A DNA stretch of 64,000 nt from a candidate division WOR-3 bacterium (GCA_016926475.1 JAFGON010000021.1:1-64000), one strand, 5' to 3'; positions 40,320 to 56,023 are shown, numbered from the stretch's first letter. Translations and numbers: made by a program. Notes: generated from the letters alone by a model not told the origin.

Positions 40320-41147
40320 CTATTTCTTCCTGACCCTGAGTTTGATAATTTTTTGCCTTGTGGCTTCGACAACTTCAAAATCCAGTCCATGAGCTGAAAA
40401 TTCATCCCCTTTTTTGGGGATTTTCTCCTGGTTGTCGAGGACAAATCCGCCCACCGTGTTGTAGTCCTCCGATTCGAGATTCAAACCCAGTAGTTCGTTG
40501 AAATCGGAGAATTCCATCCTCGCGTTTACAAGATACCACCCATCTTCCTGCTCTATGTAGTCATCTTCTTCCCCTTCCCTCGAATCCTCGATTTCTCCAA
40601 TAATTTCTTCTATGAGGTCTTCGAGAGTGACAATGCCGCATACACCGCCGTATTCGTCGACGACCATCGCAATGGAGAGATGCCTTTCCTGTAGGTCTTT
40701 AATAGTCTCGAGGACTGTTTTGCTCTCAGGGATAAAATGAGGCAAAAGAGCGAAGTCTATCGCTTTGTAAGGAACTTCCATTATCTCGTGGAGAAATGGT
40801 ATAACGTCTTTTACCTTTAAAATCCCAACGACATCGTCAATGTTGTTACCGTAGAGAGGAATTTTCCCAAATCGGTGAAGAGTGTAGTTTTCAATAATCT
40901 CTTCAACAATGGCTGTTGCCGGCAAAAAAACAGTCTCAACCCTCGGAACCATAATCTCTTCAACTCTTGTGCTAGTGAGGTATATGACCCCTTTTAGTAT
41001 GTCGGCTTCGGCTTCAGAAATTATACCTGATTCTTTCCCCTGTTCAATTATTGTTTCGGCTTCTTTTTGTTTGTTCTCTTTTCTGTTTTTTATCAGTTCT
41101 CTTATGAATTCAATGATTTTTTTCCGCCTTGTTGTTTTTCCGTCCAT
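40320..41147 (-). CDS. CBS-domain protein of the CorC/HlyC family
   Basis: A soluble 275-residue protein with paired CBS domains (VEEIMVPRVETVFLPATAIVEE and LQERHLSIAMVVDEYGGVCGIVTLEDLIEEIIGEI, described over residues 60-190) and a C-terminal CorC_HlyC transporter-associated domain (DGWYLVNARMEFSDFNELLGL). The membrane DUF21 domain of larger hemolysin-like transporters is absent, as in CorC, which modulates magnesium and cobalt efflux. It sits between a DUF502 gene (7 nt) and dnaE (0 nt). No CorA or other ion channel is nearby, so the partner is unknown. Confidence 0.85.
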   Translation of the reverse strand: MDGKTTRRKKIIEFIRELIKNRKENKQKEAETIIEQGKESGIISEAEADILKGVIYLTSTRVEEIMVPRVETVFLPATAIVEEIIENYTLHRFGKIPLYGNNIDDVVGILKVKDVIPFLHEIMEVPYKAIDFALLPHFIPESKTVLETIKDLQERHLSIAMVVDEYGGVCGIVTLEDLIEEIIGEIEDSREGEEDDYIEQEDGWYLVNARMEFSDFNELLGLNLESEDYNTVGGFVLDNQEKIPKKGDEFSAHGLDFEVVEATRQKIIKLRVRKK

Positions 41148-41817: not shown

Positions 41818-42435
41818 CTATTTCATTATTCCGAGCCAGTCGTGAAGCAGAAAATAAAACCTTCCGATCAGCAAAGATATTCTCGCCATTACAGTGTAAC
41901 CAAAAGAAGCGCCAAATGTGATCATCAAAAATATCATTCCCAACCTTCCTCCCGCCCTGAAAATTCCTCTGTGCTCGATAGAAAAAAAGAAGTAGAAAAG
42001 TCCGGTCGCGGTCCCTAAAAGAAGGATTATCTGCCCCAAAGAAATCCAGATGTTTCCGTTCCAAAGAGGGACGATGGCTGAAAAGACCTGTTCGTAAAGA
42101 TTTGATTTCAAAAAAGTGACAAATCCGTAGCCAGCTCCGATTCCGACCACAAAAGCTATAGACAAATGAGAAAACCACCTGGTCTTGTTAAAAAGTTGCA
42201 ACATCATGAAAACAGAGAGAATCGCCGGAAACACGTAGATCCAGTTGCCGGTTTTAAGGGGAATTATCAGGTTCGGTATGACAACGTCATGCCAGCCTTG
42301 GACCAACAGGTATCCGGCTGAAACTCCGACGTATATAGACTCGGCGATTTTATAAAATACATTGTCTCTGTATAAAAAGCTAAATATCGCCAAGGTCAGG
42401 AAGCCGGCGATCCAAATTCCAATTGTCTCAACCAT
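41818..42435 (-). CDS. Six-span membrane protein of unknown function (cluster member D)
   Basis: About six hydrophobic helices cover the 205 residues (for example IGIWIAGFLTLAIFSFLY, NWIYVFPAILSVFMMLQLF, WISLGQIILLLGTATGLFYFFF). Small residue patterns such as GVSAGYLLVQGW and GIGAGYGFVTF suggest tight helix packing. The ATG at 42435 is preceded by GGGAAAG and overlaps the previous gene by eight nt; upstream starts would lie deeper in that gene. It is the last of four unknown membrane genes read from 45180. No family is recognised; a structural partner of the other three proteins is the natural reading. Confidence 0.75.
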   Translation of the reverse strand: MVETIGIWIAGFLTLAIFSFLYRDNVFYKIAESIYVGVSAGYLLVQGWHDVVIPNLIIPLKTGNWIYVFPAILSVFMMLQLFNKTRWFSHLSIAFVVGIGAGYGFVTFLKSNLYEQVFSAIVPLWNGNIWISLGQIILLLGTATGLFYFFFSIEHRGIFRAGGRLGMIFLMITFGASFGYTVMARISLLIGRFYFLLHDWLGIMK

Positions 42436-43264
42436 CTTTCCCGTCTCGTTTTCCAATAAAATATACAACGTTGCCGAAAAGTATAAATACTATTATGCAC
42501 ACATGCGCTATTGATTGTGCTCCCATGCCGCTAGAAGCCATGCCCGGGTTTTCGAGCAGCTGTTCGTAATCAGCCGCTCCCGCCATTCCGCCGATCAAGC
42601 CCTGGAGTTGTCCTGAATTGAAATACGGAGTGTACGCCGGAGCGCTCACAGCAGTGCAACCGGCTATTATCTGCTTTTCGTATTTGTCTTTACCTATCTG
42701 AACCCAACCAATAACTCCTGGATCACCCGCTGAAAGTGTCACAATTACGGAAACCCTGTCGAGGTTGAAGTTGACCCCTTGGAGCAGTTCGATTTCATCG
42801 GCGCTCTTTCCTGTCAGATCTCTGGGGCAGGTTTTCCTGATATCTCCAATTATGTTGTCAATGGCTACAATTCCGCCTGATTTGTATCCGAGGTTCACGT
42901 AGTTTTTCCATCTCTCTTTTCCGTATTTGGAAGCTCCTTCGTTGAGGGCGTTCTCGGCGAATCGCACACCTTGAGGCCAAAGAGCTACAACTATCACATC
43001 GATGTCTTTTGAAAAAGCGTGTTCGATTATCGACTTACCCATCGGATAAAGTTCCGGTGCCGCCGCGGGATCAAAATCAAAAGAGACGAGAATTATTGAA
43101 TTTTCAGGCAGGCTGTCAATAAAAGAATACGCTTCCCAAACAGCTTTGGAGTCATTTTTGTTTACGATGATCGGTATATTGAGAGGGAGAACTAAAGGTA
43201 CAGCGACTGCCAGTGCGATAAAAAGGAAAATTATCCTCCTGTCTAGTTCAAAAAACCTTTTCAA
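42428..43264 (-). CDS. Membrane-anchored alpha/beta protein of unknown function (cluster member C)
   Basis: An N-terminal transmembrane anchor (residues ~12-34, IIFLFIALAVAVPLVLPLNIPI) and a C-terminal one (~252-272, SIAHVCIIVFILFGNVVYFIG) enclose a ~210-residue alpha/beta domain. That domain begins with strand-like ENSIILVSFDFDPAAAPELYPMG and continues with IDVIVVALWPQG, in Rossmann-like alternation, then GGIVAIDNIIGDIRK and VSVIVTLSAGDPGVIGWVQIG. It overlaps member B by four nt (ATGA) and member D by eight, so translation is coupled. Function is unknown; the topology suggests the domain lies between the two membranes. Confidence 0.75.
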   Translation of the reverse strand: MKRFFELDRRIIFLFIALAVAVPLVLPLNIPIIVNKNDSKAVWEAYSFIDSLPENSIILVSFDFDPAAAPELYPMGKSIIEHAFSKDIDVIVVALWPQGVRFAENALNEGASKYGKERWKNYVNLGYKSGGIVAIDNIIGDIRKTCPRDLTGKSADEIELLQGVNFNLDRVSVIVTLSAGDPGVIGWVQIGKDKYEKQIIAGCTAVSAPAYTPYFNSGQLQGLIGGMAGAADYEQLLENPGMASSGMGAQSIAHVCIIVFILFGNVVYFIGKRDGKDG

Positions 43265-43875
43265 TTGAGGTATGACCTTTCAATTCCGAAAATAATTCTC
43301 AGAGATGTCGAAATTACTCCGAGAGCTGCGCCTATCATTATTGCTCTTTGCCCCGCCGTGTTTGGTATCTCCATAATCCAGGCTTGAACAGAGGGAAGAT
43401 ACGGGAATATCATTTTTCCTATCGGTACCCTGCCCAACATGACCAAAATCGCCGCCAAAAGAAGCAGTCCCGCTTCAAGGTTTCTCGCTCTGAAAGCCCT
43501 GAAAGAAGCCGAAGCGACAAAAAAAGCAAGAAGGGAAAACATAGTGGCATTCAGGGGGGTGTAGAAATGGCTGAAAATATAATCAAAAGCCGACCCTTCT
43601 TCCATTCCACCACCCCAACCGGCGAAAACAGTCACCAAAAGAGAAAATATTATAATGGAAGAATAAATCCACCCTTTTCTTTTTTTCATTATTTTAATGG
43701 AATTCACTCTGATGAGGTTTAAAATACCGAGTATCATTGAAAACACCGCAACGACCATGTACCAATTTTTAAGCGTGTTCGCCGCTTCTCCTATGGGATA
43801 CCTCGGTACGTAAAAAGACGCTATTATCATCATACCGCTTAAAAAAGTTATCGCGAGAGGAATATACCTTTTCAT
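43261..43875 (-). CDS. Polytopic membrane protein of unknown function (cluster member B)
   Basis: Six or so transmembrane helices over 204 residues (YIPLAITFLSGMMIIASFYV, MVVAVFSMILGILNLIRV, IYSSIIIFSLLVTVFAGWGGG, MFSLLAFFVASASFRAF, GLLLLAAILVMLGRV, IMIGAALGVISTSLRIIFG). A basic loop KIMKKRKGW marks a cytoplasmic face. The pattern ASASFRAFRARNLEAGLLL is reminiscent of small conserved loops in transport subunits, but I recognise no family. Coupled to member C by an ATGA overlap and 18 nt from member A. Confidence 0.72.
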   Translation of the reverse strand: MKRYIPLAITFLSGMMIIASFYVPRYPIGEAANTLKNWYMVVAVFSMILGILNLIRVNSIKIMKKRKGWIYSSIIIFSLLVTVFAGWGGGMEEGSAFDYIFSHFYTPLNATMFSLLAFFVASASFRAFRARNLEAGLLLLAAILVMLGRVPIGKMIFPYLPSVQAWIMEIPNTAGQRAIMIGAALGVISTSLRIIFGIERSYLN

Positions 43876-43893
43876 GCCTGTTGGTTTCCCTTT

Positions 43894-45180
43894 CTAACCA
43901 GTGAAAAAAATGTTTTTGACGAAATCGATTCCAAATGAACTGAGAATGCTCCCGAGAATCAGCGCGATGATAGCAGCCGCTTTGCCGAAGTCTTGCGCTT
44001 TAAGACTGCCTACAAGACGAGGGTCGTCTGACAAGTATGCGCTTGCAGCGAAAAATTCTTCTCCGATTAGAGTATAGTCGCATGCGGCGACAAAGAATGG
44101 CAACTGAGAGGGGTCGGCGGTACCTGAAATCTGGATAGCTCCAATGGAATGACCCGTTTCGGCTAATATCAGAGATTCTGCGTAAAAATGACCCATCAAA
44201 AAAACCGTGGCTGGTTTTTCTCTAACCATTATGCCGTCGACAGCTGCGGCGTAGCCGAATTGGTCTCCCGTAAGGTAGAAAACCGAATTTTCGTCGTAGG
44301 AATCGGGCTTGCCCTCCTGAATATAAGCTTGCCTGACTATTTCCTTCGCAGTGTTATAAGCCACCGGAGCTATGGAAGGAACAGAAAGTTTACTCTCGTA
44401 GTTGGCGACTTTTTTCGCTACTCTGCCCAGAATTATCATACCTGCTATCGTCTGAACGTCGTCCATATCCATAATTCCGGGTATAAAAAGAACATCTTTT
44501 CCCATTTCAGTTGCTCTGCCTATCGCTTCATCTACCGCATCTATTCCGCTCAATTTTCTTATAAAAAAGTTTTTGCCCCTGCCTGCGCTCACAATGAAAA
44601 AAACCAAAAGAGATGCAAATACCAGGCTTCCGGCAAACATTGAAACATTCGCCTTTAAAAACCATGGTTTGTAGTAGCTCATATATTCGGTCACCGACGA
44701 GGTCAATGCTTTTGAACCTTTGAAATAAGCCATTGCATAATAACTGTACTTTCTACCTTCAAGTATATTTTCGTCAAACACAACCAGGGAATCCGCCCTG
44801 ATGACAGCGGTGTCTCGGCCACATATTTTAAACAAGACCAAGCTGTCGGGGCGTCTCCATTGCGCCTGTTCATCGGGGAAGGGGATTTCCGTAATTATTC
44901 CATTTTCCACAGTTGAAAGGCAGAGGCGAATCTCAAAAACCGTCGTCGAAGTCTCCGTCAGTTTTTTTTTCGTCACTTCCACCGTAATAGTGTCTGGAAT
45001 CTTCCAAGCGTAATAATTCTCAGCGATATTCGAACAGGTATCGACGACATTTTCCTGAGTTTTCGATTCTTCAAAAATCCCGGGCAGGATGGAATTCTTC
45101 GTCTTCCTGGCTACAAAATAAGATACACCGGCTGAAAAGAAAAAAAATATAGCGAGAAGAATCCCCATGGTCTTTGACAT
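43894..45180 (-). CDS. Three-span membrane protein, DUF6754-like, unknown function (cluster member A)
   Basis: Transmembrane segments lie near residues 5-24, 180-199 and 400-418. Residues 60-165 look like a fibronectin-type beta domain (VFEIRLCLST, YSYYAMAYFKGSKALTSSVTEY) facing outward. Residues 205-395 form a conserved-looking cytoplasmic domain (GKDVLFIPGIMDMDDVQTIAG, EKPATVFLMGHFYAESLILAE, ACDYTLIGEEFFAASAYLSDD). I recall a DUF6754 family of this shape but could not search. No SD precedes the ATG; a promoter-like and a hairpin-like signal both lie within 45 nt upstream. It heads a tight cluster of four unknown membrane genes. Confidence 0.75.
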   Translation of the reverse strand: MSKTMGILLAIFFFFSAGVSYFVARKTKNSILPGIFEESKTQENVVDTCSNIAENYYAWKIPDTITVEVTKKKLTETSTTVFEIRLCLSTVENGIITEIPFPDEQAQWRRPDSLVLFKICGRDTAVIRADSLVVFDENILEGRKYSYYAMAYFKGSKALTSSVTEYMSYYKPWFLKANVSMFAGSLVFASLLVFFIVSAGRGKNFFIRKLSGIDAVDEAIGRATEMGKDVLFIPGIMDMDDVQTIAGMIILGRVAKKVANYESKLSVPSIAPVAYNTAKEIVRQAYIQEGKPDSYDENSVFYLTGDQFGYAAAVDGIMVREKPATVFLMGHFYAESLILAETGHSIGAIQISGTADPSQLPFFVAACDYTLIGEEFFAASAYLSDDPRLVGSLKAQDFGKAAAIIALILGSILSSFGIDFVKNIFFTG

Positions 45181-45196
45181 ATTTTTAGATTATTTT

Positions 45197-45221
45197 AAAA
45201 AAAAAATCCCGTCAAGGGATT
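45197..45221 (-). promoter_or_regulatory. Hairpin with T10 tract / promoter-like TTGACG upstream of membrane cluster
   Basis: On the minus strand AATCCC, loop TTGAC and GGGATT form a 6-bp stem whose 3-prime arm merges into a run of ten T residues (45206-45197). The loop also reads TTGACG and, 17 nt on, TAATCT stands six nt before the ATG at 45180. It could be an attenuator or a promoter for a leaderless message; sequence alone does not decide. Confidence 0.35.
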
Positions 45222-45330
45222 CTTGCTTTGTATAAGGATATAAAATCATGTAAGGGTCAATTAAATACCAGATGAAAAAACTTACAGATCCTCTTCAAAT
45301 CAACCCATTCCTCTTCCTCGCAAAAAGCTT

Positions 45331-55781: not shown

Positions 55782-55863
55782 TGCCGGGAGTGGGAATCGA
55801 ACCCACATGGTGTAAACCGGCGGATTTTAAGTCCGCTGCGTATACCGATTTCGCCATCCCGGC
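55782..55863 (-). tRNA. tRNA-Leu (anticodon UAA)
   Basis: The 82-base minus-strand gene pairs acceptor GCCGGGA with TCCCGGC, has the T-arm TGGGTTCGATTCCCA, a long variable arm typical of class II tRNAs (CGGTTTACACCATG) and an anticodon loop reading CTTAAAA with anticodon TAA. The 3-prime CCA is not encoded. It is last of three tRNAs. Confidence 0.93.
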
Positions 55864-55869
55864 TTTTTT

Positions 55870-55941
55870 AGGCGGCGTCCGGACTTGAACCGGAGAATAG
55901 CGGTTTTGCAGACCGCCGCCTTACCGCTTGGCTACGCCGCC
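55870..55941 (-). tRNA. tRNA-Cys (anticodon GCA)
   Basis: The 72-base minus-strand gene has acceptor GGCGGCG paired with CGCCGCC, D-arm TAGCCAAGCGGTAAGGC, anticodon loop CTGCAAA with GCA, and T-arm CCGGTTCAAGTCCGG. The discriminator is U, the recognition base for cysteinyl-tRNA synthetase. CCA is not encoded. Confidence 0.93.
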
Positions 55942-55950
55942 ACAAAAAAA

Positions 55951-56023
55951 AGCGGGAGACGGGATTCGAACCCGCGACATCCACCTTGGCAAGGTGGCGC
56001 TCTACCAACTGAGCTACTCCCGC
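55951..56023 (-). tRNA. tRNA-Gly (anticodon GCC)
   Basis: The 73-base minus-strand gene has acceptor GCGGGAG paired with CTCCCGC, D-arm TAGCTCAGTTGGTAGAGC, anticodon loop TTGCCAA with GCC and T-arm GCGGGTTCGAATCCCGT. The discriminator is U. It is the first of the three tRNAs, directly behind a strong promoter. Confidence 0.94.

Follow-up and report, generated by a model that had tools for sequence, protein, structure and literature searches.

A 64,000-nucleotide stretch of DNA from a candidate division WOR-3 bacterium (GCA_016926475.1, JAFGON010000021.1:1-64000), hereafter the window, carries four adjacent genes, A to D, that very probably encode one undescribed membrane machine, since their order is fixed in distant bacteria, where they usually lie behind an ATP-using protein. 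In the explanation that we consider best overall, with a probability of roughly one in two, the four proteins would form an inner-membrane complex that elsewhere acts together with a MutL-type ATPase and a KOW protein, ATP being used on an envelope component. What was computed comprises gene order, co-occurrence, joint evolution, the pattern of membrane topology, the canonical MutL motifs and MutL-KOW fusions.

A four-gene membrane cassette

The four genes are co-directional, as an earlier note on this DNA had described, all being located on the minus strand at 45180-41818. The features of the region are as follows.

45202..45224, minus strand: terminator-like hairpin and T run, just upstream of A
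45180-43894, minus strand: gene A, 428 aa, DUF6754 protein
44725..44991, minus strand: FN3-like beta domain of A (aa 64-152), predicted periplasmic, strands from AlphaFold2
43906..44667, minus strand: DUF6754 domain of A with its two flanking TM helices, soluble core predicted cytosolic
43875-43261, minus strand: gene B, 204 aa, six TM helices, N-terminus inside
43264-42428, minus strand: gene C, 278 aa, TTG start
42435-41818, minus strand: gene D, 205 aa, five to six TM helices
41155..41814, minus strand: DUF502 gene (PF04367, E 1.9e-31), lineage-specific neighbour, non-core
40320..41147, minus strand: CBS + CorC_HlyC gene, lineage-specific neighbour, non-core

A and B are separated by 18 nt, B and C overlap by 4 nt, and C and D overlap by 8 nt. 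These junctions agree with the earlier note except in the sequence of the B/C overlap, which reads TTGA and not ATGA because C starts with TTG. As had also been recognized, D is followed by the DUF502 gene (after 3 nt) and the CorC-like gene (after a further 7 nt), beyond which lies dnaE. Two terminator-like hairpins separate A from its upstream gene, and the one directly before A weakly suggests that A opens its own transcription unit, the number of hairpins in the region being near that expected by chance. Elsewhere in the window, three tRNA genes (Leu, Cys, Gly) stand in a row on the minus strand at 55782-56023.

Protein A comprises an N-terminal signal/anchor helix, an FN3-like domain, a TM helix, DUF6754 and a C-terminal TM helix. 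It is a clear member of DUF6754, the family named in the earlier note and a Pfam catalogue entry without function, matching PF20539 at E 1.8e-115 over aa 172-425 (384.9 bits against a cut-off of 27; profile positions 4-257 of 257). Across 97 cassettes, 51 positions of this domain are at least 95% conserved. Family-averaged hydropathy, interpreted with the positive-inside rule, gave three hydrophobic segments in A, six TM helices with the N-terminus inside in B, and five segments in D. Previously proposed counts of 3, 6 and 2 for A, B and C were therefore reproduced, whereas the six given for D became five with a plausible sixth. Positive charges flank the DUF domain of A, so DUF6754 is predicted to be cytosolic.

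Two of the proteins had been thought to carry large beta or alpha/beta soluble domains, and these were recovered as an FN3-type beta domain in A and an alpha/beta domain in C. Among the Foldseek matches listed for the former, nearly all were FN3 domains or FN3-containing proteins (probability up to 1.00), and one relative of A matched Pfam fn3 (E 0.007). The FN3 domain was the only part of A that AlphaFold2 modelled usefully, the DUF6754 model being poor and unusable for fold searches. In relatives of A the N-termini reach approximately 700 residues, with several FN3-like stretches discernible by eye, some of them behind a lipoprotein-type signal. Protein C is predicted to consist of a TM helix, a periplasmic Rossmann-like alpha/beta domain and a second TM helix, based on topology and an AlphaFold2 model that was partly confident (mean pLDDT 64; Rossmann-like core at residues 57-203). 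Its best fold comparison was with VIA (Z 6.4, rmsd 4.3 over 142 residues), and no structural relative can be named because many unrelated enzymes tie.

Conserved motifs were found in B (FRAFRAR and PN.AGQRA..IG..LG) and D (FSFLYRDNP.YK.AE and FGASFGYTVMARISL), and C has conserved Q, H and N residues in and before its last helix. No obvious charged pathway was seen within the membrane segments, and these polar residues of C, together with the glycine-rich helices of B and D, might fit a packed membrane assembly slightly better than an ion channel.

Searches of Pfam and NCBIfam returned no convincing family for B, C or D, nor was any Pfam family consistent among their 41-member sets. The HMM-HMM comparison proposed in the earlier note, performed with 41-member profiles of A, B, C and D against the PDB, found nothing convincing, and hhalign detected no homology between A and C or between B and D. 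There were no relatives in PHROGs, on viral contigs (D as query) or on plasmids (A as query). Anti-phage defence was set aside because no PADLOC model matched at E 0.01 for eight proteins that included MutL and KOW. Two candidate assignments for B were likewise rejected, the weak matches being scattered and resembling those of hydrophobic helices: TMD0_ABC (6 of 41 members, best 9e-5), and TssN of type VI secretion, for which the window protein scored 11.4 bits against a cut-off of 30.3 and a single one of 41 members matched at E 0.0018.

Conservation of the cassette and its MutL-KOW partners

When GTDB genomes were searched directly, named relatives of A came to light in WOR-3, Zixibacteriota, Coatesbacteria and unclassified bins, and B, C and D followed in the same order wherever the contig permitted. 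In the fetched regions, the order A-B-C-D was kept for 44 of the 51 A genes that had enough downstream sequence; of the exceptions, two are succeeded by an A'B'C' set of divergent sequence, a third has B and C plus a D recognized by the D' profile, and others come from single-contig assemblies, in which genes may be masked by frameshifts. In total, 97 complete cassettes were identified over 73 regions, and tandem arrays of two to three were common. Among 386 genomes spread over Bacteria, A was present in 102 (67 families), roughly a quarter of the lineages sampled. C occurred in 103 genomes, and 100 had the two together (Fisher p 2e-86, a value that ignores genome relatedness). PF20539 was found in all 118 Zixibacteriota genomes (the phylum of locus L017), mostly in 4-6 copies, and in 0 of 14 control genomes.

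The four genes also share their history. Mantel r was 0.69-0.78 for every pair among A-D, with 0 of 500 permutations as high, although these correlated trees partly reflect common ancestry. Within tandem arrays, A, B, C and D agreed on a single paralogous cassette in 402 of 714 comparisons (56%), against the roughly 4-12% that arithmetic gives for random choice. Together, these results indicate that A-D duplicate and evolve as one block. The suggestion that the four genes constitute one unit is thereby upheld, in that their order recurs in distant lineages, instead of the genes being separate and scattered, their co-occurrence is near-perfect, and whole cassettes are duplicated in tandem along a joint history.

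Outside the window lineage, the usual order in many unrelated families is S-MutL-KOW-A-B-C-D, where S is a small conserved protein often found in front of MutL-KOW. The idea of one unnamed membrane machine gained support, with the qualification that the window holds just part of a system which elsewhere usually includes a MutL-type ATPase, KOW and S. The MutL partner (~620 aa) is a full-length member of the MutL/GlmL family of ASKHA ATPases (PF13941, E 2e-129) with intact ASKHA motifs, its canonical form keeping phosphate-1 (DCGSTTTK), phosphate-2 (DIGGATTD) and the GG adenosine motif. The KOW partner (380 aa) combines a barrel-sandwich N-terminus with a KOW-like C-terminus. At six loci (L189, L190, L191, L194, L195 and L196), MutL and KOW-like parts occupy one reading frame of 933-1045 aa, with no A-B-C-D adjoining in the regions read; such fusions point to probable physical contact between the two.

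Among the recurrent outer neighbours in a set of 60 regions was a small membrane protein encoded upstream of S at about ten loci (for example L129:14012-14452, L140:3517-3957, L142:6101-6628 and L019:1583-2134, as well as L145, L148 and L156). One member matched bPH_6 at E 0.0065, below the cut-off, making a PH-like domain possible, and its gene may be the eighth of the operon. Other recurrent neighbour clusters, such as glycine-cleavage and response-regulator genes, were confined to few loci and were not functionally telling.

The association with MutL and KOW could instead be one of co-regulation, with A-B-C-D alone forming an autonomous membrane transporter or channel and the two cytosolic proteins serving a separate process. 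Consistent with this, numerous cassettes occur by themselves (e.g., L037, L040-L042 and L147), the window species has no canonical MutL/KOW, and tandem paralogues lack a MutL copy of their own, two to three cassettes being usually accompanied by one MutL. However, in the 386 genomes KOW was never found without A (97 of 97 KOW carriers), and MutL-KOW directly adjoins the cassette in widely separated families, so that we regard autonomy as unlikely.

The cassette in the window lineage

The available assembly of the window genome (G000) contains one A-B-C-D cassette and no match to the canonical KOW protein, which is present in its three closest relatives among the genomes analysed. Its one weak MutL match is on another contig, beside a diverged KOW-like gene.

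L126:9112-12044 (G000:C48): diverged MutL-like gene (556 aa) and KOW/barrel-sandwich-like gene (462 aa)

Sister genomes have this pair too, next to argS-, recO- and purC-like genes (L192 and L193). In the window genome's version, phosphate-2 is degraded, with loss of glycines, and the pair has probably lost ATPase function. With no canonical KOW and a weak MutL of this kind, ATP drive is not claimed for the window cassette.

Additional cassettes adjoin canonical MutL-KOW in the three nearest relatives, and a divergent A'B'C'D' set accompanies them in at least two; in two relatives a strongly diverged A'B'C'D' was seen directly after A-B-C-D-A (L020:7933-10844 and L023:14683-17771). In a tree of concatenated A-D, the window cassette groups with the orthologues that are linked to DUF502/CorC. 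The 44-member clade around them also includes cassettes from other lineages that are linked to MutL; the MutL-linked ones within the window's own family branch separately. This placement indicates that at least two ancient types of cassette were passed down to the window lineage, of which the window species retains only one in the available assembly.

An operon for membrane integrity or ion homeostasis, in which A-D would function with DUF502 and the CBS/CorC protein in the window lineage, is suggested by the contiguity of these genes at 3 and 7 nt and by the same order in sister genomes. DUF502 follows D at L015, L016 and L024 only, with the same CBS/CorC order at L015 and L024, and in the regions read neither gene accompanies the cassette outside the window's family, apart from one weak CorC-like match 3.5 kb downstream at L140. 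Since they follow the cassette only in this family, and are not part of it in other lineages, the two are not core components, and such an operon appears quite improbable. The CBS + CorC_HlyC protein of the window is without the DUF21 membrane domain usual for its family. One scaffold carrying the window-type A-B-C-D-DUF502 block (L016, LKUE01000397.1) is labelled Desulfuromonas sp. SDB, probably wrongly, as it matches G003, which is placed in the window's own family.

A candidate envelope machine

Type VI, Rnf/Nqr-like and glutamate-mutase interpretations were tested and not supported, the last two resting on similarities that merit description. In an Rnf/Nqr-like ion-translocating redox complex, KOW would correspond to the peripheral subunit RnfC/NqrA, B and D to the paired 6-TM subunits, and C to the periplasmic subunit RnfG/NqrC. 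The N-terminus of KOW does match RnfC_N in 10 of 27 members (best E 9e-6) and NQRA_N in 5 of them, and B and D are similar in size to RnfA/RnfE. Yet Biotin_lipoyl matches at least as often, so the likeness is that of a common barrel-sandwich fold. Moreover, no cysteine occurs among the invariant or nearly invariant columns of KOW, which hence has no Fe-S motif, and the protein differs further in its C-terminal KOW-like motif. None of 41 B and 41 D members matched an Rnf-Nqr membrane family at E 0.01, and Rnf/Nqr complexes contain no ASKHA ATPase, making this a very improbable identity.

We consider it just as improbable that the cassette serves a coenzyme-B12 mutase as its membrane partner while MutL reactivates the enzyme as a chaperone, the function suggested for it with glutamate mutase. 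The PF13941 match does bring with it a named role alongside that enzyme, but in Zixibacteriota MutL was found in 110 of 118 genomes, against 5 of 118 with the glutamate mutase E subunit (the B12 mutase searched) above cut-off, so glutamate mutase is not the general MutL partner there. The enzyme is thus absent from almost all carriers in this phylum, in which the MutL gene sits with KOW and A-B-C-D, and no mutase was among the recurrent neighbours of the 60 regions. Finally, that A-D are ordinary neighbours without shared function is hardly credible, since across dozens of families they keep their order, occur together and evolve jointly.

Inference covers the physical assembly of the inner-membrane complex that we favour, the place of docking, its drive by ATP and whatever it may act on in the envelope. 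A would expose its FN3-type domain on the outer side of the membrane and DUF6754 on the inner side, B and D would be multi-pass scaffold or conduit subunits, and C, anchored at both ends, would hold its alpha/beta domain outside. That the four form one complex is highly probable, and it is probable, to a lesser degree, that MutL/KOW belongs to it outside the window lineage. In most carriers, the cytosolic pair of MutL-type ASKHA ATPase and barrel-sandwich/KOW protein would work with the complex, most likely docking on the cytosolic DUF6754 face, and would use ATP to switch its state, enabling it to handle or move some component of the envelope. We put ATP drive at slightly under even odds, and a role in envelope transport or assembly is a tentative proposal with the odds clearly against it. 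In the window species, the cassette would have to act either alone or with the much diverged MutL/KOW pair encoded elsewhere in the genome.

No paper naming DUF6754, PF20539 or PF13941 was found in the open-access literature (most subscription journals lying outside the search), and, judged from that literature, the partners B, C and D and the link of DUF6754 to MutL-KOW appear to be undescribed. Among the sources searched, the literature part being open-access, no described system matched. A bolder formulation, possible albeit somewhat against the odds, is that S-MutL-KOW-A-B-C-D is an ATP-driven, envelope-spanning machine with duplicated ABCD modules, belonging to the core genome of entire phyla and unrelated to known transport, secretion or respiratory complexes.

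Few undescribed systems are both as widespread and as conserved in gene order as A-B-C-D. The presence of A in every sampled Zixibacteriota genome suggests a fundamental role in the envelope that is missing from textbook organisms, and MutL-family ATPases gain a second context, independent of glutamate mutase, that is directly testable.
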